Assembly (NCBI GenBank): GCA_019235885.1
Contig: JAFAKB010000047.1
Location: 1 to 52,822 of the forward strand
Direction of reading: 5' to 3'
DNA: 52,822 bases
Origin: Candidatus Eremiobacterota bacterium
GTDB lineage: Bacteria > Vulcanimicrobiota > Vulcanimicrobiia > Vulcanimicrobiales > Vulcanimicrobiaceae
In this document: positions 28,557-47,035 of the stretch, piece after piece
Layout of the letters: every line of letters begins with the position of its first letter
Numbering within the stretch: the first letter of the stretch is position 1
Program-made: the position numbers and the translations under genes
Notes under the pieces: model-generated
What the model saw: only the letters and a program-made list of their open reading frames with translations
What the model was told of the DNA's origin: nothing
The model's database searches: none

Positions 28557-28967
28557 CTACCGCTCGTGCGCGTGACGCATCATCGGCAGTGCGCCGCACG
28601 AGATCGTTTGCGTCCCGGCGGTGTTCAGCACCGCGATGACGTACGGGCCGGGCTTCGGCGGGTTCACCTTCACCACCGTGTCTGAACGCCCGCCGACGAC
28701 CGGCTTCAGCTCGTAGGCCGGTTCCGCACTCAGCTTCGCGCAGGTTCCCGTGTAGACGCCGGCGGGATAGCGGTTCTCCGGAATGAACACGCCGTCCAGG
28801 ACGATTGCCACGTCGACGACCGGCGGCTTCACCATGCGATGCGCGAGCGTCGCCGTCCCGGACATCTTCGATCCGTGCTGCGGCAGCAGCGGCACCTTCA
28901 CCGGCGGCGGCGGCGTCGCCGCGATGAACGCGAGAGCCAGCGGAACAACGAACAAAGGCGAACGCAT
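28557..28967 (-). CDS. Small secreted protein of unknown function
   Basis: 136 residues. A signal peptide (LFVVPLALAFIAATPP) precedes a Pro-rich linker and a beta-rich domain: VDVAIVLDGVFIPENRYPAG, YTGTCAKLSAEPAYELKPV and KPGPYVIAVLNTAGTQTISC. The two Cys (TGTC and ISC) could form a disulfide. No family recognised. ATG 28967 has AGGTTG upstream. It is at the 3' side of the PBP4 operon but 66 bp away, so possibly independent. Confidence 0.6.
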   Translation of the reverse strand: MRSPLFVVPLALAFIAATPPPPVKVPLLPQHGSKMSGTATLAHRMVKPPVVDVAIVLDGVFIPENRYPAGVYTGTCAKLSAEPAYELKPVVGGRSDTVVKVNPPKPGPYVIAVLNTAGTQTISCGALPMMRHAHER

Positions 28968-29032: not shown

Positions 29033-30502
29033 TCAGCTGCGCGCCAGAAGCTGCAGCGCGCGGTTGATCCCAATCTCGACCGGGCCGTCGTCGGCGCGGC
29101 GGTCGTTGACGACGATCGCGAACGCAACGCGCCCGTGCCGCCGCGTCTGCACGTAGCCGGTGAGCGCGTTGACGTGCTCGATGTGACCGCTCTTCGCGCG
29201 CACGCGCCCGCGCGCGTCGCCGATCTGCCGGCGGCGCACGGTGCCCTCGATCCCGACCCGCGGCAGCGCGCCGACGAACAGCGGCCCGACCTTCTCCTGC
29301 GCGGTGCGCGCGAGCAGCGTCGCAAGCGTGAGCGCCGTGACGCGGTCGCTCGGCGCGAGGCCGCTCCCGTCGACGATGCGCAGCCCGTCCTGCGGGACGC
29401 CGTCGCGGGTGAGGATCGCGCGCTCGACCAGCGCGCCGTTCGCTTCGGTCCCGGCGCCGCGCGTCGCGCCGACCGCGCGCAGCAGCTGCTCGGCGAAATG
29501 GTTGTTCGACTCCAGCATCATCTCGTGCACGACCTCGCGCAGCGGCGGCGAGCGGTGGCGCCACAGCACGTACGGCGCGAGCGGCGCGACGCCGGTGCGG
29601 ATCCCGCCTTCGACCGCGATCCCGCGCTCGCGCAGCATCGCGCGCGCGACGCCGGCGGCGTAGCGCGGCAGATCGATCACCGGGCGCCAGAACGACTGCT
29701 CGGCGCCGGCTTCGATCCGCCCGTCGAGCGTGAAGTCGTTGCGCTCCGGATCGCGCTGGATCGTCAGCAGCGTCGCGTACGAGGTGAGGATCGTGCCGCT
29801 GACGTGCACCATGTCCGACGGCGGCAGCACGCGCACGCGCGCGGGGGCGCCGGGGCTGGTCGGGATCAGGTGAAACTCGACCGTCCCCTGGTCGAGCGAG
29901 AGCGCGCTGGTTCCCGCGGCGTAGCCGTACTGCAGATCGTCGGGATCCCACGCTTTGTTCACCTCCGGGCCGGAGAACAGGCTCGCGTCGGCGATGACCG
30001 CGCCCGCGATGTCGCGCACGCCCGCGCGCGCCAGCAACGCGACGCCGCCGCGCAGGTCGTCGCGCGTAAGCAGCGGATCGCCGGTTCCGACGAGATACAG
30101 ATCGCCTTGAACCTTGCCGTCAGACGGGTCGTCGACCGACTCGAACGTCGTCGAAAAGCGGTAGTCCGGGCCGAGCGTCTCGAGCGCCGCGGCGCCGACC
30201 AGCACCTTGAACGTCGAGGCCGGCGTCAGCGGGACGCGCTCGCGCCGCGTGAAGAGCGGACGCCCGTCGCCGTCGACGACCGCGATCCCGCTCGTCGCGA
30301 GCGCCGATGCGCCGAGCGCGCCGCGCAGCTGCGCTTGCAGCGCGCGCAAGTCGTCCGCGCTCCACGCCGGCGCGCTCGGCGCCGCGACGAGCGCGGTCGC
30401 AACGGGGGTCGGCTGCGGTGACGGCGCCGGCGTGCGGCCGCCGCACGCCGAGACGACCGCGAGCGCGAGCGCCGCGGCGATCAGACGGCTCCGCGCGCTC
30501 AC
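29033..30502 (-). CDS. dacB: D-alanyl-D-alanine carboxypeptidase/endopeptidase, PBP4 (DacB) class, lipoprotein
   Basis: 489 residues from GTG 30502. A lipobox (ALAVVSACGG) predicts a lipid-anchored periplasmic protein. Penicillin-binding motifs: SxxK in PASTFKVLVG, SxN in LESNNHFAEQLL, and KSG in RAKSGHIEHVNALTGY. The large insert between SxxK and SxN identifies the class C (PBP4) type. Trims stem peptides or cross-links of peptidoglycan. The start overlaps the M1 peptidase stop (GTGA) and it is the last gene of the coupled operon 29033-35853. Confidence 0.92.
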   Translation of the reverse strand: MSARSRLIAAALALAVVSACGGRTPAPSPQPTPVATALVAAPSAPAWSADDLRALQAQLRGALGASALATSGIAVVDGDGRPLFTRRERVPLTPASTFKVLVGAAALETLGPDYRFSTTFESVDDPSDGKVQGDLYLVGTGDPLLTRDDLRGGVALLARAGVRDIAGAVIADASLFSGPEVNKAWDPDDLQYGYAAGTSALSLDQGTVEFHLIPTSPGAPARVRVLPPSDMVHVSGTILTSYATLLTIQRDPERNDFTLDGRIEAGAEQSFWRPVIDLPRYAAGVARAMLRERGIAVEGGIRTGVAPLAPYVLWRHRSPPLREVVHEMMLESNNHFAEQLLRAVGATRGAGTEANGALVERAILTRDGVPQDGLRIVDGSGLAPSDRVTALTLATLLARTAQEKVGPLFVGALPRVGIEGTVRRRQIGDARGRVRAKSGHIEHVNALTGYVQTRRHGRVAFAIVVNDRRADDGPVEIGINRALQLLARS

Positions 30503-33015
30503 TTGGGCGTCAGCTCGTCCAGCCGTTCGCGCAGCGCCTGCGACTCGGCGCGCAGCTTCTCCATCTCCTCGCGCAAGCGCGCGAGCTCGGCCGGCTTCGA
30601 CTGCTGCTCGCGGATGCGGATCGCCGCTTCCGCGGCGTCGCGCCGCAAGCGGCCGTCGCTCTCGCTCGTCGCGAGGCGGTCGAGCGTCGGCAGCAAGCGC
30701 GCGTCGCCGAGCCGCTCGGCGGCGGCGAACGCCGACATGCGCACCAAGTACGCGCGGTCGTCGAGCGCGCGCTCGAGCGCCTCGACCGCCGCGGTGCGCA
30801 CCGGTTCCACGAGCGTGCCGAGCTGCGCGACCGCGCCGGTCGCCGCGCGCCGCAGCGCTTCGGGACGATCGGCCCGCAGCGCTTCCTCGATCACCGGGAG
30901 CGCGCGCGCGTCGGCGAGCGCGCCGAGCCCGCGCACCGCGCCGGAGGCGATCGTCTCGTTCCACGACCGGATCGCGATCCCGGCGACGAGCGCGTCGAGC
31001 GCGCGCGGATCGCGCGTCTTGCCGAGCGCGTGCAGCGCCGCCGCGACGACGAAATACGACGGATCGTCGCGCAGGCCGAGCAGCGCCGTCGCGACCGCTT
31101 CGTCGCGCCAGTGTCCGAGCGCGTCGGCGACGGCGCGCCGTACTTTCGGGTGCGCGTTCGCGGTGTTCGCGAGCAGCGTCTCGCGCGCCGAGGGCGCACG
31201 CGAGGCGCCGAGCGCCGCCGCCACCTCGACGCCGACGCCCCAGAACGGATCGTGCGCGAGCGCGTCTGCGAGCGCCTCGCGCGCCGCGCGGCCGGCCTCC
31301 TTCGCGAGCGCCTTCGCGGCGCGAATCCGCGCGATCGGCGAGGGATCGCCGCGCAGGATCGCCGCGTGCATGTCCGCTCCGAGCGACGAGGTCCACGACG
31401 AGAGAATCCACGCCGCCGGATCGACCCGCACCAGCGCCGGCTCGCGCTCGAGCGGCACGGCGAACGTCTGCGGCGCGCGGTCGACGTGCAGTCGCACCCG
31501 CGTCTCGCCGCGGAGCGGGCCGTCGCCGAAATCGGTGTGAACCTTCTGCGGCGGGGACGCGGCGAAGCCGACGTCGAGGTCGAACGCGTAGGCCGGATTC
31601 TCCTCGTCGATCGTCTGCTTCTGCGCGACGGTGATCAGCGCGGTCTTGCGCTCGGCGTCCCACTTGTAGTGCACGTCGATCTGCGGGTGCCCGCCGCGCT
31701 CGACCCACTGCGCGAAGAACCGCCGGGTGTTGCGGCCCGTCTCGACCTCGATCGCGCGGACCAAGTCGATCGTCTCGACGTTCTTCTGCGCGTTCGTGCT
31801 GACGTAGCGCCGCAGCGAGCGCTGCATGCGCTCCCAGCCGAGCTCGCCGCGCAGCATGTGCAGCACCGCCCCGCCCTTCTCGTAGAGGTGGCGGTCGAAC
31901 AGCTCGATCGGGTCGCGGAACATGTTGCAGACGATCGGGCGCCGGTAGCGCTCGCTGTCCTCCTCGAGATAGCGCTGCACCACGCCGTACACGTCGTACA
32001 GGTACTCGTCCCAGCCTTTGTCGGCTTCCAGCCAGACCGCTTCGAAGTAGGTCGCGAAGCCTTCGTTCAGCCACGCGTGCGCCCAGTCGCGGCAGGTCAC
32101 CAAGTCGCCGAACCACTGGTGCGCGAGCTCGTGCGAGGCCAGGTAGTCGGCGCTGTAGTCGAGGTGCGCGCGCTCGTCGTGCAGCACGCGGTCGGTCTGC
32201 GTCGTCGCCGCGGTGTTCTCCATCCCGCCGAAGATGAAGTCGGCGACGGCGATCTGCGAGTAGCGCTCGTACGGATACGGCACGCCGATCGTGCGCTCGA
32301 AGACGTCGACCATGCGCGGCGTGTTCCCGAACGCGCGCTCGCCGTCGGCTTCGCGCCCCGGCAGCGTGTAGTACCAGATCGGAACGCGCGCGTGCGGCTG
32401 CTCGACCTCGCTGAACGGCCCCGCGACCAGCGTCACCAGGTAGGTCGCGTGCGGGACGTGCTGCTCGTAGCGGTAGACCGTCTCGGCATCCGTCTCCGTG
32501 CGCGAGACGAGCGCGCCGTTGGCGAGCGCGAAGTGCCCCTTCGGAACGATCACCGTCGCCGAGGTCGTCTGCTTCTCGGCCGGGTAGTCGAAGCACGGGA
32601 ACCAGTAGCGCGCGTCGGAGTCCTGGCACTGCGTCCAGACGTGCTTCGGCTCACGCTCGATGAAGTAGATCCCGCGCTGCGGGTTCTCCACCACGTACTC
32701 TACCGAGAAGACCAGCTCGTGGCCGGCGCGCAGCGGCGGCTCGAGCTCCAGCTCCAGCTTCTCGCTGCTGGTGTGGAACGGCACCGCGCCGCCGTCGTCG
32801 CGCCGGACCGCGCGCACGTCGAGGTCGACCGCGTCGAGGACGAGCCGCGCGACGCCGTCCTCGATCGCGCGCACGCGCGTCGTGCACACGGCGTCGAGCC
32901 GCTTGCGCCCGATGTCGGGCTGCAGCCGCAGGTCGATGTGCACCACGTCGACGACCTTGTCGGGTCCGTACTGCGGGCGCGCGCCCGGCAGCGCAAAGGG
33001 GCGGTGATCGCTCAA
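30499..33015 (-). CDS. M1 family zinc aminopeptidase with C-terminal HEAT-like repeats
   Basis: 838 residues from TTG 33015 (TTGA overlap with the upstream stop). Zinc site HELAHQWFGD with the third ligand in LNEGFATYFE and the exopeptidase motif GGMEN make it an M1 aminopeptidase. The N-terminal domain starts FALPGARPQYGPDKVVDV. After about residue 460 the sequence turns into repeated Ala-rich helical pairs (ARETLLANTANAHPKVRRAV, AVATALLGLRDDPSYFVVAA), i.e. HEAT-like repeats, and ends in a short coiled coil (LREEMEKLRAESQALRERL). No signal peptide, so probably cytoplasmic. Confidence 0.9.
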   Translation of the reverse strand: MSDHRPFALPGARPQYGPDKVVDVVHIDLRLQPDIGRKRLDAVCTTRVRAIEDGVARLVLDAVDLDVRAVRRDDGGAVPFHTSSEKLELELEPPLRAGHELVFSVEYVVENPQRGIYFIEREPKHVWTQCQDSDARYWFPCFDYPAEKQTTSATVIVPKGHFALANGALVSRTETDAETVYRYEQHVPHATYLVTLVAGPFSEVEQPHARVPIWYYTLPGREADGERAFGNTPRMVDVFERTIGVPYPYERYSQIAVADFIFGGMENTAATTQTDRVLHDERAHLDYSADYLASHELAHQWFGDLVTCRDWAHAWLNEGFATYFEAVWLEADKGWDEYLYDVYGVVQRYLEEDSERYRRPIVCNMFRDPIELFDRHLYEKGGAVLHMLRGELGWERMQRSLRRYVSTNAQKNVETIDLVRAIEVETGRNTRRFFAQWVERGGHPQIDVHYKWDAERKTALITVAQKQTIDEENPAYAFDLDVGFAASPPQKVHTDFGDGPLRGETRVRLHVDRAPQTFAVPLEREPALVRVDPAAWILSSWTSSLGADMHAAILRGDPSPIARIRAAKALAKEAGRAAREALADALAHDPFWGVGVEVAAALGASRAPSARETLLANTANAHPKVRRAVADALGHWRDEAVATALLGLRDDPSYFVVAAALHALGKTRDPRALDALVAGIAIRSWNETIASGAVRGLGALADARALPVIEEALRADRPEALRRAATGAVAQLGTLVEPVRTAAVEALERALDDRAYLVRMSAFAAAERLGDARLLPTLDRLATSESDGRLRRDAAEAAIRIREQQSKPAELARLREEMEKLRAESQALRERLDELTPK

Positions 33016-33557
33016 ATACCGGCTCCGTCGGTGAAGGTGGGATCGTCGTCGCATTGCAACGGCCGCGCGAACGCGATGGTTTCGAGCAGCGCGAGCCATT
33101 CGCCGTCGCCGACCGCCGGACGCAAGCGGCGAGCCGGCCGCGAGGCGCGCAGCGCGTCCTCCGGCCGCAGCGTGAAGCCGAAGCGGCGGTTCGCGAGCAT
33201 CCGCTCGAACGCCGGATGACCGTACTCGATCAAGCCGATCTCGCGCTCGAGCTCCCAGCGCTGAATCGCGCCGGCCGGCGCGACGAACGCGAAGTGCGTG
33301 CAGTAGGGCAGGTACGCGGGCCACTTCCCGTCGGCGAGAAAGTCGGCGCGCGACGACTTCACCTCGTAGATGCGCACCTGGCGCGTGTAGCGCCCCAGCC
33401 CGATCACGTCGAACCGGCAGCCCGACCCGCCCGGCGAGAACTCCGTCGCGACGTACGGATAGCCCAGCCGCCGCATGCGTTCGCACGCCAGCGCGCGCAG
33501 CTCGGCGGTCGTCGTGCGCTTCCCCGCTGTCGCGGTCAGCGGAATGTAGTCGATCAA
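33012..33557 (-). CDS. MmcB-like PD-(D/E)XK-fold DNA-repair family protein
   Basis: 181 residues from TTG 33557. The segment CRFDVIGLGRYTRQVRIYEVK has the Asp...Glu-x-Lys of the PD-(D/E)XK fold and is followed by SSRADFLADGKWPAYLPYCTH, a stretch characteristic of MmcB proteins (from memory, linked to mutagenic repair in alphaproteobacteria). The catalytic Asp, Glu and Lys all look intact. The TTG shares TTGA with the glycosyltransferase stop and its own stop shares TTGA with the aminopeptidase start. Confidence 0.8.
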   Translation of the reverse strand: MIDYIPLTATAGKRTTTAELRALACERMRRLGYPYVATEFSPGGSGCRFDVIGLGRYTRQVRIYEVKSSRADFLADGKWPAYLPYCTHFAFVAPAGAIQRWELEREIGLIEYGHPAFERMLANRRFGFTLRPEDALRASRPARRLRPAVGDGEWLALLETIAFARPLQCDDDPTFTDGAGI

Positions 33558-35077
33558 CGCCGTGCGGTCCCTGAGGGCGGCGTCTCTTCCCAGCGCAGGA
33601 TGCGCAGCGCGTTCGGCCGCGGATCGATGCACCAGGTCAAGAAATACCGCCGCGCCGGAACGGTGTGGCCGCTCGGATCCGTGTACGAGTACTCGAGGCC
33701 TGGCCCCGGCTCGACCGCCCGGCACGCTTCGTGCAGCCGGCGGTTGAAATCGGGCCGGCCCGGGTACGTCTCGGGCCGGCCTTTGACCGCGACCAGCGCC
33801 TCTTTGTCGACGAACAAGATGCGTTTGGGGTGCATGTCGGGATCGTACCAGTGCCTCGCTTCTTGGCCTTGCGCGTTGTACCCGACGAACACCGGCGGAA
33901 TCCCGGCTTCGAAGTCCATCTGCGAGGAGAAGCCGTACCCGTCGGTCACCACGACCGCGTCGTTCGCGTCGGCCATCCGGCGCACGTCCTGCGCGAGCGG
34001 CCAGTAGGTGAAGATCTCGAACGGGCCGCTGTTGCGCAGCGACGAGCCGGTCGCGAGGAACTGGTGATAGAGCTGGCCGGGGAAAGCCGCCGCCACGAAC
34101 AGGAACGGGATCAGCACCGCCGCCGGGACCGCGGCCGCCGTCGCCCACAGCACGCGCGCGCGGTGCGAGAGCGCTTCGAACGCGAGCCCCATCCCGACGC
34201 ACAGCGAGACGAACGGCCCGAAGATCCAGTGCAGCTCGATCCGTTCGTGGAAGTTGAGAAGAACCAGCAGCGCGGCGAGCGGGATCGCGGTCCACGCGAT
34301 CAGCGCGTTGCGCGGCCGCACCAGCACCATCAGTCCCGCGAGCCAAAGCCCCGGCGAGTACGCGCCGGCATTGGCCAACAAGTACGTGAACGGACGGTAC
34401 CAGCGCGGCTCGGCCTGGTGGCGCTGCTGAAACGCGAACGCGAACGTCTCCCAGTGATGCGCCGCGTTCCACGCCAGGAACGGCGCGAACAGGATCGCCG
34501 CGACGACGAACGAGAGCGCCAGCCCTTCGCGCCACAGCGAGCGCCGCGGCGGCGCGGGCGCCCAGGCGACGATCCCGGCGATCAGCGCGAACGCGAACAT
34601 CTTCGAGAGCAGCGCGAACGCGAGCGCGACGCCGAGCAGCAGGTAGTCGCGCCGCGCGTGCGTCTGCGAGGCGCGCACGGTCAGGTACAAGCACAGCGCC
34701 CAGCCCGCCATCAGCGGGCCGTCGGGCGTCGCCAGGACGAAGCCGACCGAGAGCAGCGGCGCGAGCGTCATCGCCAGCGCGGTCACCATCCCCGCGCGCT
34801 CGTCGCCGGTCAAGCGCTTCGCGGTCGCCGCCGCCGCGAGCGTCGCGACGACGCCGCACAGCAGAAACGGAAGCCGCAGCCAGAACGGGTTCGCCGTCAC
34901 CCAATCGAACGGAAAGATCAAGTACGCCACCATCGGCGGATGATCCGCGTAGCCGAGCGCGAGGTGCTTGGCCCACTCCCAGTAGTACGCTTCGACGCCG
35001 GTGAGCGGCAGCTTCCACGCGGCGAAACCGCGCATCAACGTGACGAACGCGACGATGATCCAGGTCGCGTACTTCAC
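33554..35077 (-). CDS. GT39-family (ArnT/PMT-like) membrane glycosyltransferase
   Basis: 507 residues from GTG 35077 (GTGA overlap with the SDR stop), with about 10 membrane helices in the first 350 residues. The first periplasmic loop EAYYWEWAKHLALGYADHPP contains the acidic residues expected of GT-C enzymes, and LLSKMFAFALIAG follows. The C-terminal ~150 residues are soluble (VVVTDGYGFSSQMDF, ILFVDKEALVAVKGRPETY). Transfers a sugar from a polyprenyl-phosphate donor, probably at the periplasmic face; acceptor unknown. Confidence 0.88.
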   Translation of the reverse strand: MKYATWIIVAFVTLMRGFAAWKLPLTGVEAYYWEWAKHLALGYADHPPMVAYLIFPFDWVTANPFWLRLPFLLCGVVATLAAAATAKRLTGDERAGMVTALAMTLAPLLSVGFVLATPDGPLMAGWALCLYLTVRASQTHARRDYLLLGVALAFALLSKMFAFALIAGIVAWAPAPPRRSLWREGLALSFVVAAILFAPFLAWNAAHHWETFAFAFQQRHQAEPRWYRPFTYLLANAGAYSPGLWLAGLMVLVRPRNALIAWTAIPLAALLVLLNFHERIELHWIFGPFVSLCVGMGLAFEALSHRARVLWATAAAVPAAVLIPFLFVAAAFPGQLYHQFLATGSSLRNSGPFEIFTYWPLAQDVRRMADANDAVVVTDGYGFSSQMDFEAGIPPVFVGYNAQGQEARHWYDPDMHPKRILFVDKEALVAVKGRPETYPGRPDFNRRLHEACRAVEPGPGLEYSYTDPSGHTVPARRYFLTWCIDPRPNALRILRWEETPPSGTARR

Positions 35078-35853
35078 TCGTGCGGCCTCGTCAGCCCACC
35101 GTTCACCCCGAGCACCATTCCGTTCAAGAACCCGTTCTCTTCCGCCGTTGCGAACAGCACCGCAGCCGCGACGTCTTCCCACGACCCCGCGTGTCCGGTC
35201 GGGTTCTTCGCCGGAATCGCCCGCGCCGCTCCCCGGTCGGCATCTTTGTCGCGGATGTCGCCCGGCTCGATCACGTTGACCGAGATGCCGTGCTCGGCTT
35301 CTTCGAGCGCGAGCGCCCGCGCGAAGGTGACCACGGCGGCCTTCGCGGCGCCGTAGAGCGCCAGCCCGCGCGCCGGCCGGGTCACCGACGAGCCGTTCAT
35401 ACCGAAGAAGACGAGCCGCCCGAAGCGCCGCGCGCGCATCCCGGGCAGCACGGCGGCGGCCAGCGCGACCGCCGAGCCGAGGTTCCCCTCGACCACGGCG
35501 CGGTAGTCGTCCGGCGCGCAGCGCTCGAAGCGCCGGATCGTCATCGGCCCGACCGCGTGCACGACGACGCCGAGCGGGCCGCGCACGGCCTCGACGTCCC
35601 GGACCAGCGCGGCGGCCGCACCGGGATCGGTGAGGTCGGCAGCGAGCGCCACCGCGCCGGGGTCGTAAGCGCGAACGAGTTCGAGCGTGCGGTCCGGCGG
35701 CGTCCCGCCCGGGCGGCACGTGAACGCGACCGGATGTCCGGCCCGCGCCAGCGCGACCGCGATCCCGCGTCCCAAGCCGGCCGCCGCGCCGGTGATCAGC
35801 GCGGCACGGGCGGTTCGGCCCGCGTCCGGGGCGGGCGTGGTCGGCGAGGACAC
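35074..35853 (-). CDS. SDR-family oxidoreductase
   Basis: 259 residues from GTG 35853. The cofactor motif GAAAGLGRG (TGxxxGxG type), an NADP-phosphate-binding CRPGG after the second strand, and the catalytic Tyr-x-x-x-Lys (LYGAAKAAV), with NGSSV holding the Ser, define a classical short-chain dehydrogenase. C-terminal VNVIEPGDI is also typical. Resembles FabG-like or sugar-modifying reductases; substrate unknown. First gene of the five-gene operon, followed by a glycosyltransferase, which hints at a nucleotide-sugar or lipid-linked substrate. Confidence 0.88.
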   Translation of the reverse strand: MSSPTTPAPDAGRTARAALITGAAAGLGRGIAVALARAGHPVAFTCRPGGTPPDRTLELVRAYDPGAVALAADLTDPGAAAALVRDVEAVRGPLGVVVHAVGPMTIRRFERCAPDDYRAVVEGNLGSAVALAAAVLPGMRARRFGRLVFFGMNGSSVTRPARGLALYGAAKAAVVTFARALALEEAEHGISVNVIEPGDIRDKDADRGAARAIPAKNPTGHAGSWEDVAAAVLFATAEENGFLNGMVLGVNGGLTRPHE

Positions 35854-35905: not shown

Positions 35906-37030
35906 CTACTGGACTTGGAGCTGCTCTTGGACCGGGGTCCCGGTCGCGCCGGTGTTCGGATCGGTCGCCTGGATCGCCATGATCAGCGACGTGCCGGACG
36001 GCGCCCCCGTGTTGATCTGCGTCTGGAACCGCCCGTTGCCGTCGGCGGTGACGGTCGAGCTGACGATGTTCCCGCCGTTCGCGCCGAGAATCGCGCCGAT
36101 GATCCCGCCGATCGTCGTGCGGTTGGCGTTCGAGCCCACCTGCACGGTGACGCGCGCGCCCGGCGTCGTGCGGCCCGTGACGGTGAACGAGCTCGGGACG
36201 GTCGCACCGTTCCCGGGGTTGACGTTGAGGATCTGGCCGGCCGTCGCGCTCGAGGTGCCGGACGAGAATCGCCAGGCGCGGTTGAACGAGCCGCCGTTGC
36301 TGTCGGTGCCGGTGACGCGAACTTGGTGCTGGCCGGCCTGCAGCGGCGACTGCGGCGAGTACGTGAAGCCGCGCGGCGAGCGCGTCGCTCCGTTCGTCAC
36401 GTCGGCGCCGTCGAGATAGATGTGAAGCGAGTTCGGGTCGACGGTGCCGCCGGCGAACGTCGCTTCGATCGTCGGCCGCCGCGCGCTGACGCTCTGGCCG
36501 CGCTGCGGCAAGGGATTGACGAGCGTGATCGCGCCGCCTTGTGCGTTCGGGTTCGGCACCGGGGTGATCGTCTGGTTCGGCGGGTTCTGCGCGACGTTGC
36601 CGTTCGTGCTGATCGCGACGATGCGGTTGGAGCCGTCGTAGTTCACCGTCGCACCGAGCGCTTGCGAGACGAAGCGCAGCGGAACGTACGTCGACGCACC
36701 GATGATGAACGGCGCGACGTCGATGTTCTGCTGCTGGCCGTCGACGGTCGCGGTCTGCGAGCCGATGCGCAGCGAGACGTTGTGGCCGCGGCCGCTGGCG
36801 TTGATGACGCCGCTTGCGTACACGACCGACGCGCCGAGGTTCTCGAACACGCCGCGCAGCGGCACGAAGACCCGTCCGGCGCGCTCGGTCGGCGCCGGGT
36901 TCAAGTTGAGCGTGTTGCCGTTTACTTGGACGGTGACGGGGCCGGCCGCAAATGCCGGCACCGAGAGCGCCGTCGCAAGAAATCCCGTCCCGGCGAGCAC
37001 GGACAGACGTCGCGGTGAAAGAGCAAGCAT
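35906..37030 (-). CDS. Secreted copper-amine-oxidase-N ('stalk') domain protein with Ig-like modules
   Basis: 374 residues. Signal peptide LAGTGFLATALSVPAFAA. Two tandem stalk repeats follow (PTERAGRVFVPLRGVFENLG and GASTYVPLRFVSQALGATV). After a linker come Ig-like modules with GGTVDPNSLHIYLDGADVTN and TVPSSFTVTGRTTPGARVTVQV. The domain binds cell-surface components in Firmicutes but its role elsewhere is unclear. There is no amine oxidase catalytic domain. It stands alone downstream of the RND gene, 79 bp away, with GGAGGT before the ATG. Confidence 0.85.
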   Translation of the reverse strand: MLALSPRRLSVLAGTGFLATALSVPAFAAGPVTVQVNGNTLNLNPAPTERAGRVFVPLRGVFENLGASVVYASGVINASGRGHNVSLRIGSQTATVDGQQQNIDVAPFIIGASTYVPLRFVSQALGATVNYDGSNRIVAISTNGNVAQNPPNQTITPVPNPNAQGGAITLVNPLPQRGQSVSARRPTIEATFAGGTVDPNSLHIYLDGADVTNGATRSPRGFTYSPQSPLQAGQHQVRVTGTDSNGGSFNRAWRFSSGTSSATAGQILNVNPGNGATVPSSFTVTGRTTPGARVTVQVGSNANRTTIGGIIGAILGANGGNIVSSTVTADGNGRFQTQINTGAPSGTSLIMAIQATDPNTGATGTPVQEQLQVQ

Positions 37031-37108: not shown

Positions 37109-40462
<3,354 letters not shown>

Positions 40463-40578
40463 GCGGCAGCCGTCCTCTCGCCGGATCGCACCGAATTACG
40501 GAGCGGCCGTTCTCGGTGTTTCCGGCGGTTCCCTTAATTTTACAGTTGATGAACGAACCGTGGCCCGGAAGACTGCCC

Positions 40579-40618
40579 AAAAGACCCGAGAGCCCCGGCC
40601 GGCGGCCGAGGCTCTCGG
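40579..40618 (-). terminator. Terminator after the upstream RND gene
   Basis: A 9-bp perfect stem (40618-40610 with 40594-40586, read on the minus strand) with GC-rich interior, followed by a short T-run. It lies 12 bp after the stop of 40631-43963, so the downstream RND gene probably has its own promoter in 40463-40578, which I could not pin down. Confidence 0.6.
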
Positions 40619-40630
40619 TGGACGCCGGGT

Positions 40631-43963
<3,333 letters not shown>

Positions 43964-44359: not shown

Positions 44360-44767
44360 GTGTCGACGCCGCCTGTCAGCAACGATCAGCCGCTGCCGCC
44401 GAACTACCGGACGGTCCTCGACGTCGTTGAGGAAGCCGGGCCGGGCAGCCATCTCACGGCTCAGCAGATTTGGGTTCGGGCCCGGGCGCGCCAGCCGCGG
44501 ATCGGCTTCGCCACGGTGCACCGCGGGCTGATCCGGCTGCACGAGCTGGGCGCGGTGATGAAGATCGACGTCCCCGGCGAAGCCTCGGCGGTCTACGAGC
44601 CTGCCGCCAGCCCGCACGCGCACTTCCGCTGCAGCCGCTGCGGGCTGCTGACCGACTTCGACTTCGCCGTCCCTACGGAGACGCTGCGCGCGCTCGCCGA
44701 GCGCCAAGGCGTCACGATTGAGCACGAGACCGTCACCTTCACCGGCCGCTGCAAAAGCTGCCGCTGA
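44360..44767 (+). CDS. Fur-family metalloregulator (PerR/Zur-like)
   Basis: 135 residues from GTG 44360. N-terminal winged HTH ([29 protein letters not shown]) and a C-terminal dimerisation domain with structural zinc Cys pairs CSRC and CKSC. His residues in SPHAHFRC and IEHETV are candidate metal ligands. The unusual TVHRGL instead of the common TVYRTL is a small deviation. Neighbouring msrB suggests peroxide/redox responses (PerR-like), but the metal cannot be told from sequence alone. A self-regulatory operator is likely (44296-44325). Confidence 0.88.
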
Positions 44768-44816
44768 GCCGCGCGTCGTTGCCACCGTGCCCGCTCGCGG
44801 GACGGTCTATCAGAGC

Positions 44817-45218
44817 GTGAACAAGATTGAGAAGACCGCTGCCGAGTGGCGGGCGGAGTTGGCGCCCGAGCGATATGCGGTGCTGCGGGAGGGCGCGACG
44901 GAGCGGCCGTTCAGCGGGGCGCTCTACCATAACCACGACGAAGGGACGTACGCCTGCGCGGCGTGCGGCAACACGCTCTTCTCCTCGGCGACGAAGTACG
45001 AGAGCGGGAGCGGGTGGCCGAGCTTCTGGGCCCCGGAGGACCGCGCGAACGTCGAGCTCATCGAAGACCGCTCGCACGGGATGGTCCGCACGGAGGTCCG
45101 CTGCGCGCACTGCGGCTCGCACCTGGGGCACCTCTTCGACGACGGCCCGGCGCCCACGGGCCAGCGCTACTGCATGAACTCGCTCGCGCTGGAGTTCGCT
45201 CCGAAGCGCGAGGGCTGA
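44817..45218 (+). CDS. msrB: Peptide-methionine (R)-S-oxide reductase MsrB
   Basis: 133 residues from GTG 44817; an in-frame GTG at 44787 would add 10 residues. Zinc-binding CAAC and CAHC pairs, the SGSGWPSF motif, [14 protein letters not shown] and the catalytic Cys in RYCMNS identify MsrB. It reduces the R-epimer of methionine sulfoxide in proteins using thioredoxin. It follows the Fur-family gene by 49 bp and may be co-transcribed. No signal peptide, so cytoplasmic. Confidence 0.93.
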
Positions 45219-45260
45219 ACCTCTGCGGGCCTTTCCTCGACGCATCGGTGTGGAAGGGCA

Positions 45261-45812
45261 ATGAGCGACGCCGACGACCGCCGCCTGCTGGAACGAATCG
45301 CACGCCGTGACCGGGTCGCGTTCGAGACGTTCTTCCGCGCGCACGGGTCGGCGGTCCACCGGTTCGTCCGCGATCTCGTGCGCGACGACGGTCTTGCTGA
45401 GGAATTGACGAGCGACGTGATGGTCGAGGTTTGGCGGAGCGCCGCGAAGTACGGCGGCCGCTCGCGCGCCCGGACCTGGGTGTTCGGGATCGCGCATCAC
45501 AAGGCGATCGACGCGCTGCGCAAGCGGCGCGTGACGCTGCTTCCGCTCGACGCGCTGCTCGGCGCCGCGAGCGACGCCGAGTCGCCCGAAGCCGCTGCGC
45601 TGCGCGCCGACGAACGGCGGCGGCTCGACGGCGCGCTCGCCTCGCTCAGCCCCGAGCACCGCGCCGTCCTCGAGCTGACCTACGTCGAGGGCTTCTCGCA
45701 AAAAGAGATCGCCGAGGTCGTCGACTGCCCGCTCGCGACCGTCAAGACGCGCGCGTTCTACGCGAAGCAGCGGCTGCGCGACGCGCTCGCGACCGCGGAG
45801 CACCCGCGATGA
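45261..45812 (+). CDS. ECF (group 4) RNA polymerase sigma factor
   Basis: 183 residues. Region 2 is FETFFRAHGSAVHRFVRDLV with DVMVEVWRSA and RARTWVFGIAHHKAIDALRK; region 4 is LSPEHRAVLELTYVEGFSQK, EIAEVVDCPLATVKTRAFYA. Such sigmas switch to an extracytoplasmic stress regulon when the anti-sigma is inactivated. The stop overlaps the anti-sigma start (ATGA). RpoE/SigK-like. Confidence 0.94.
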   Translation: MSDADDRRLLERIARRDRVAFETFFRAHGSAVHRFVRDLVRDDGLAEELTSDVMVEVWRSAAKYGGRSRARTWVFGIAHHKAIDALRKRRVTLLPLDALLGAASDAESPEAAALRADERRRLDGALASLSPEHRAVLELTYVEGFSQKEIAEVVDCPLATVKTRAFYAKQRLRDALATAEHPR

Positions 45813-47035
45813 CAAACAAGCACGAGATCGCCGAGCTGCTGCCGTTCTACGCGAACGGCACCCTGGAGCCGGACGAGCGCGCGCGCGTCGAAGCCGAGCT
45901 TGCGAGCTGCACGGACTGCGCGGCCGAACTGCGCGACCTCGAAGCGCTCGGCGCCTCGCTGCAAGCGCGCGCCGCCGCGGCGCCGCCGGTGCCCGAGCGC
46001 GTGCTCGACGAAGCGCTGGCGCGCATCGCGATGCCGCCGGCGACGCGCGCCGCGACGCGGCTGCAAACCGCTTGGTGGGGAACGCCGGCGCGCTATGCGA
46101 CGGCAGCGGCGCTCGTCGTCGGCTTCAGCGCGGCCGCGTTCGCGGCGTACCACGACCACGAAGCGAACGTCGCCAGCGACACGCAGGGGATCACGGTCGC
46201 GCACGACGCGAACACGACGACGATCTTCCGCGTCACGCCGGGTCCGGAAAACGCCTCGCAAGCGCAGCGTGTAGCGCGTCTTCCGGCTGCACCGCCCGCG
46301 GCGGTCGACGCGCACAAAGCCACCGAATCGGCGCGGACCGTGCCGAAGCAGCCGCGGCTCGCCAAGAAGGCGCGCCTCGCGCTGCTGGTGCGCGACGTCG
46401 AAGGCTCGCTCAAAGCGGTGCGCGCAACGGTGGGCGCGGCGGGAGGCGACGTCATCTCCCTGGCCGACGCGACGCCGGCGAGCGCGGACACGGTGCACGA
46501 AGCGCAGCTCTCGGCCGAAGTCCCGGCCGCGCGTCTCGACGAGACGCTCGACCGGCTGGCGGCGCTCGGCGCGGTGCAGAACCGCGCGATCGACGCCGAA
46601 GACGTCAGCGGCGCGATCGTCGACGAAGAGGCGCGGCTGCGCAACCTGCGCCGCGAAGAGACCGACTTGCGCAAGCTGATGGACAAAGGCGGCAAGGTCG
46701 ACGAGATCCTCACCGTCCAGCAGAACCTCAGCGACGTGCGCGGTCAGATCGAGCAGCTCGACGCGCAGCACCAGAACGATCTGCACCGGGTGGCGACCAG
46801 CACGATCGACGTCTCGCTCGCCGAAGACCGCCCAAACTCCGCGCCCGCGAAGCCGGGGCCGACCGCGCGCATCGACGGCGCCTGGCACGGCGGCCTGAAC
46901 GCGCTCGCCGACACCGTGGTGTCGCTGCTCAGCGCGCTCGCGTTCTGCGTCGCCTTCGCGCCGGTTCCGCTCGCGCTCGCCGGCGCGGTCTGGTTCGCTA
47001 CGCGACTCTGGCGCGCGCGCGCCACCGCGACGTAA
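45809..47035 (+). CDS. Anti-sigma factor with zinc-finger domain fused to DUF4349
   Basis: 408 residues. The N-terminal ~60 residues form a zf-HC2-type anti-sigma domain: His5 in KHEIAELLPFYANGTLEP and the CTDC motif. A membrane helix follows (YATAAALVVGFSAAAFAAY). The external part holds a DUF4349-like domain: LLVRDVEGSLKAVRATVGAA and VPAARLDETLDRLAAL, then a coiled coil (LRNLRREETDLRKLMDKG). A final membrane helix pair region ends the protein. The sensor is thus a DUF4349 module in place of the usual short extracytoplasmic tail. Coupled to the sigma gene. Confidence 0.82.
   Translation: MTNKHEIAELLPFYANGTLEPDERARVEAELASCTDCAAELRDLEALGASLQARAAAAPPVPERVLDEALARIAMPPATRAATRLQTAWWGTPARYATAAALVVGFSAAAFAAYHDHEANVASDTQGITVAHDANTTTIFRVTPGPENASQAQRVARLPAAPPAAVDAHKATESARTVPKQPRLAKKARLALLVRDVEGSLKAVRATVGAAGGDVISLADATPASADTVHEAQLSAEVPAARLDETLDRLAALGAVQNRAIDAEDVSGAIVDEEARLRNLRREETDLRKLMDKGGKVDEILTVQQNLSDVRGQIEQLDAQHQNDLHRVATSTIDVSLAEDRPNSAPAKPGPTARIDGAWHGGLNALADTVVSLLSALAFCVAFAPVPLALAGAVWFATRLWRARATAT

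Follow-up and report, generated by a model that had tools for sequence, protein, structure and literature searches.

The window, the whole 52,822-nucleotide stretch that we analysed, comes from an uncultured member of the genus of Vulcanimicrobium alpinus (Eremiobacterota). On its minus strand, between positions 29033 and 35853, we identified five genes whose names in a sequence-only reading (SDR, GT39, MmcB-like, M1, and PBP4) proved right by their Pfam and NCBIfam matches. The four junctions described in that reading, GTGA, TTGA, TTGA, and GTGA, were confirmed. The genes and features of the locus, from upstream to downstream, are:

37109 to 40462, minus strand: RND transporter of the AcrB type (ACR_tran, 1e-223), which neighbours the cluster in most fetched family loci
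35906 to 37030, minus strand: stalk-like protein with a Cu_amine_oxidN1 domain (PF07833, 2.1e-28), 52 nt upstream of the SDR gene and conserved in position
35074 to 35853, minus strand: SDR oxidoreductase with a GTG start (PF13561, adh_short_C2, 4.8e-37)
35074 to 35077, minus strand: GTGA overlap of the SDR stop and the GT39 start, read from the sequence; a 4-nt option exists at 17 of 20 SDR-GT39 junctions
33554 to 35077, minus strand: PMT_2-type (GT39-like) glycosyltransferase with a GTG start (PF13231, PMT_2, 9.8e-24)
33554 to 33557, minus strand: TTGA overlap of the GT39 stop and the MmcB start, read from the sequence; relatives have ATGA or GTGA
33012 to 33557, minus strand: MmcB-like PD-(D/E)XK nuclease-fold protein with a TTG start (PF06319, 6.5e-08; alignment; match to 3dnx)
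33023 to 33026, minus strand: candidate GGAG Shine-Dalgarno motif for M1, within the MmcB codons GGA-GCC and 7 nt before the M1 TTG
33012 to 33015, minus strand: TTGA overlap of the MmcB stop and the M1 start, the same in 6 of 6 genomes having both genes
30499 to 33015, minus strand: M1 aminopeptidase-like protein with C-terminal HEAT repeats and a TTG start (PF01433, 1.7e-50; PF13646, HEAT_2, 6.2e-27)
30499 to 30502, minus strand: GTGA overlap of the M1 stop and the PBP4 start; the 4-nt form occurs in 8 of 10 genus loci
29033 to 30502, minus strand: PBP4-type D-Ala-D-Ala carboxypeptidase with a GTG start (PF02113, Peptidase_S13, 4.3e-88; TIGR00666, 3.8e-75)

Our own gene caller, which was trained on codon usage, chose the same five starts. 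The PBP4 protein scored 253.1 bits against the TIGR00666 equivalog cut-off of 107.8, and its N-terminus appears lipoprotein-like, as judged by eye. The genes for the stalk-domain protein and the RND pump, encoded upstream in the same orientation with spacers of 52 and 78 nt, accompany the cluster in relatives; the operon is thus probably longer, with the five genes at its distal end. The pump gene belongs to a tandem pair of AcrB-type RND genes (37109-43963, minus strand, 168 nt apart). A plus-strand cluster at 44360-47035 encodes Fur-like, SelR, sigma-70-like, and DUF4349/zf-HC2 proteins, with a 4-nt overlap between its last two genes (sigma-70-like and DUF4349/zf-HC2). A small secreted-looking protein is encoded downstream of PBP4 in the same orientation, at 28557-28967; it has no Pfam match, and matches to it also lie below PBP4 in loci L044 (genome G001) and L051 (G008).

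The unbroken chain of 4-nt overlaps had been called odd, a view that the counts did not bear out. Using the gene caller on 402,347 bases of the source genome, we found a start available at −4 in 62 of 140 same-strand pairs lying within 60 nt of each other, as ATGA (29), GTGA (29), or TTGA (4, two of them in the studied operon). This sequence contains one run of five overlaps in addition to the studied run of four, and label shuffling produced a mean of 0.62 runs of four or more (P = 0.49 for at least one and 0.11 for at least two), so that such a run arises half of the time. The V. alpinus sequence examined (1.2 Mb) showed the overlap option in 211 of 515 close pairs and four runs of four, and TTGA was again the rare form (4/211). 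Taken together, these counts rejected an unusual overlap density. Unusual conservation was likewise rejected, as seven of nine other testable overlapped pairs are still 4-nt in V. alpinus, in a small sample of 18 adjacent ortholog pairs among 135 tested between the two genomes. The chain is real and conserved, but it does not exceed chance and is mostly ordinary.

We fetched the loci of 40 relatives (32 from the same family, two from the order, and six from the class), which are not a random sample because they were picked for an M1 or MmcB match; most of the genomes compared are MAGs. Conservation of gene order had been proposed as a check, and within the family the order is kept: RND, stalk protein, SDR, GT39, MmcB, M1, and PBP4. 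Three of these genes (GT39, MmcB, and M1) are optional, and the order maps are interrupted where contigs end and lack some members. Only M1 was found in the class-level loci, its neighbours being absent in 6/6. The family core comprises the RND, stalk, SDR, M1, and PBP4 genes, with GT39 and MmcB as inserts between SDR and M1. Regarding the suggestion that the genes mark a conserved cellular module, the conserved family order supports it, whereas the nuclease gene is an optional insert, intact in 13 of 99 family genomes, and the least stable part.

The 4-nt option was retained to different degrees at the individual junctions, which were scored in all loci except L067: 17/20 for SDR/GT39, 5/12 for GT39/MmcB, 6/6 for MmcB/M1, and 8/26 for M1/PBP4 (8/10 within the genus), together with 8/12 where SDR directly precedes M1 and 3/9 where GT39 does. 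Coupling is therefore not strictly kept, since genomes beyond the genus have lost the M1/PBP4 overlap and the GT39/MmcB overlap occurs in only 5/12. MmcB adjoins GT39 in all 13 genomes that hold it; an apparent fusion of the two in G038 was rejected, as a TAA ends GT39. In L048 (G005), about 2.3 kb of other sequence is inserted between GT39 and M1, and the end of GT39 is changed. In a lineage without M1 in the operon, an M1 relative with 51% identity lies on another contig (L159, G017).

The MmcB-like protein scored 32.9 bits with the PF06319 profile (gathering cut-off 22), which also matched the control, Caulobacter vibrioides. The PD-(D/E)XK core residues D50, E65, and K67 were invariant in 12/12 aligned sequences. 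A solved relative, 3dnx, was found by profile (E = 9.1e-10) and shares the motif ExKSSRADF-x-AD-x-KW; Foldseek also returned it (1.5e-05), with a weak model of which only the core (pLDDT about 80) was used because the mean pLDDT of the whole was 60. The profile score, the invariant core, and the structural relative together indicate an MmcB-like protein. Caulobacter MmcB is described as an SOS-regulated PD-(D/E)XK nuclease that protects from mitomycin C (PMC9578287). The studied protein resembles it in passing the family cut-off and in its D...ExK core, but matches over about 55-65 residues only, is encoded within an envelope operon, and has an extra C-terminal half ending in GAGI. PF06319 matched 14 of 149 genomes of the phylum; the one additional to the 13 above, G118 (L160), has a 28-bit match on a contig of 6.8 kb that bears none of the operon genes. 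Relatives carrying names were nearly all Eremiobacterota MAGs. A scan for MmcB beyond the phylum used short patterns, which distant relatives escape, and yielded 11 loci, of which nine carry the title Eremiobacterota or UBP12 and two the title Rhodospirillales. The latter (L122 and L124) hold the operon on contigs identical to those of the family members G017 and G024, and their names look wrong.

The MmcB/M1 junction is fixed at the codon level. In all six genomes with both genes, the 3' end of MmcB reads GAC GGA GCC/T GGT/A ATT TGA and M1 starts with TTG. The C-terminal G-x-G-I is conserved in 13/13 MmcB proteins, including those from genomes without M1. Among 115 columns with identical residues in the six MmcB proteins, there are just two positions at which all six use a rare codon (<15% usage), Gly178 (GGA, 7.8% of Gly codons) and Ile181 (ATT, 7.2% of Ile codons). 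The seven genomes that have MmcB and lack M1 use GGC, GGT, or GGG for the first Gly of the tail, never GGA, and ATC for the Ile in 6/7, with ATT occurring once, followed by TAA. The GGA codon creates the GGAG motif 7 nt before the M1 start, and ATT creates the TTG itself. When the protein ends in Ile and the stop is TGA, ATA (1.3% of Ile codons) is the only codon that would produce ATG in a 4-nt overlap; hence M1 starts with TTG through ATT. The eight genomes of the same clade without MmcB start M1 with TTG (G002, G008, G054), GTG (G003, G004, G005, G009), or ATG (G001). The best explanation for the conserved TTG of M1 is that the protein encoded upstream has Ile as its C-terminal residue, and we infer that the GGA and ATT codons were selected for M1 translation. 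The predicted Shine-Dalgarno energies were weak to moderate (GT39 −5.9, M1 −5.8, MmcB −4.6, and PBP4 −3.0 kcal/mol), and 14% of random positions reach −5.

MmcB appears to have been lost about seven times. A 33-taxon tree built from RND, SDR, and PBP4 grouped the 20 GT39-bearing genomes with 100% support. A 30-taxon FastTree tree, which also used GT39, with five genomes added and eight outgroup genomes dropped, implied about seven losses if the gene was gained once, although it contains weak nodes (e.g., G003 at 0.77; G032 with G025 at 0.07).

At several of these junctions, we observed sequence resembling the last 18 nt of MmcB. GT39 of G008 is extended in frame to end in ...ITDGAGI*, with 17/18 nt matching the MmcB tail. 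G002 carries a 10-codon ORF one nt after GT39, which ends in TTGA on M1 (16/18). G032 encodes a 61-residue, in-frame mini-MmcB that retains both ends of the protein, lacks the nuclease core, and ends in TTGA on PBP4 (16/18; best blastp 3.5e-11). G009 has a 14-codon ORF with GTGA at both ends, whose first 12 nt include 10 that are the same as in G007 and whose tail score of 12/18 alone is within reach of chance. Control starts reached a maximum of 13/18 (n = 1,350), with 16 at 12 or more, and the M1 starts of 12 outgroup genomes scored 8-10/18. The G054 remnant is weak (9/18). No remnant was detected by tail scoring in G001, G003, G004, G005, G015, and G049 (8-10/18), nor by eye in G026. Thus, three or four lineages apparently retain the MmcB tail as a GT39 extension or as 10-, 14-, or 61-codon mini-ORFs. 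In the firm cases (G002, G008, and G032, and G009 if accepted), the reading frame continues to terminate at the start codon of the gene that follows. The tail most likely stayed in some lineages because it serves as the ribosome-binding site of that gene.

These observations are probably best accounted for by a lineage-specific, envelope-centred operon of Eremiobacterota, in which the distal genes are joined by stop/start overlaps of the type most frequent in prokaryotes and the MmcB tail is kept as an embedded ribosome-binding site. A ribosome finishing one gene would most likely begin immediately on the one that follows. At the MmcB/M1 junction, the conserved C-terminal ...GAGI would fix the M1 start by turning ATT into TTG, with the GGA codon contributing the candidate GGAG; as MmcB decays, this tail would persist in some lineages. 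A more tentative reading, which we hold to be less likely than not, is that MmcB has come to serve partly as a translation relay, in which the protein is dispensable and the delivery of ribosomes to the next gene is not. The gene would then erode by internal deletion to mini-cistrons of 61, 14, or 10 codons or to a GT39 tail, while the start-to-stop chain stays unbroken up to the next start codon. The remnants suggest such a relay, although four cases, not all of them independent, cannot prove selection.

Alternatively, the overlaps might be a mere by-product of compaction in a GC-rich genome, in which the 4-nt form is the easiest, coupling is not selected, and membership of one operon is all that the genes have in common. 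We take this explanation seriously, while holding it to fall short of probable. It agrees with the overlap option in 62 of 140 and 211 of 515 close pairs and with the frequent recovery of such a run by shuffling; selection-free simulations are also described as favouring short overlaps (PMC3887535). However, it does not account for two rare codons fixed exactly at the Shine-Dalgarno candidate and start of M1, or for remnants retained at this very spot after gene loss. A quite improbable reading is that the element GACGGAGCCGGTATTTG is M1's own ribosome-binding site and predates MmcB, which was gained rather than lost, the genomes without MmcB representing the older state. The element does stand directly before M1 in G002 and G008, both of which are without MmcB. 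Nevertheless, in the sister clade that lacks M1, MmcB ends in the same GAGI written with different codons, the outgroup M1 starts score only 8-10/18, and both termini of the MmcB protein persist in G032, all of which argue for loss.

The five products could also form one functional module, for example for envelope damage repair, combining wall trimming, glycosylation, peptide recycling, and nucleic-acid processing. The PBP4, PMT_2, and RND families are envelope proteins, and the gene order is conserved over the family, both of which favour a shared role. Against this, GT39, MmcB, and M1 each come and go, and M1 of the class-level relatives has no such neighbours in any of six loci. We consider a single module unlikely. 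The operon as a whole may well serve the envelope.

The chain itself is a frequent arrangement; what merits a test is the apparent erosion of MmcB around a ribosome-binding site that it seems to contain. One junction offers a natural series of an intact gene, an in-frame shrunken gene, a mini-ORF, a fused tail, and clean loss, which would allow one to ask if translational coupling constrains gene loss from operons. In addition, the junction supplies a straightforward explanation of why a TTG start is conserved, namely the C-terminal residue of the protein encoded upstream. The genus has one cultured species, whose complete chromosome (V. alpinus WC8-2, 3,508,363 bases; PMC9758169) carries the intact MmcB form.

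Among unidirectional overlapping gene pairs, NTGA is reported to outnumber every other spacing by a wide margin (Huber et al. 2019, PMC6728339; review PMC12548453). The termination-reinitiation pairs described in these sources resemble the studied genes in their NTGA overlaps and in a Shine-Dalgarno candidate within the 3' end of the upstream gene, and all four junctions here show the 4-nt stop/start overlap. They differ in that here rare codons within a conserved C-terminus fix both the candidate and the start, and in that the tail appears to outlive its gene. A narrow search of the open-licence literature found no case in which the remnant of a gene persists as a coupling ORF. In engineered mini-cistron or bicistronic designs, a short ORF terminates at the start codon of the gene whose expression is wanted. 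The mini-ORFs observed here likewise end on the start of the next gene, but they are natural and have apparently been left over from a decayed gene.
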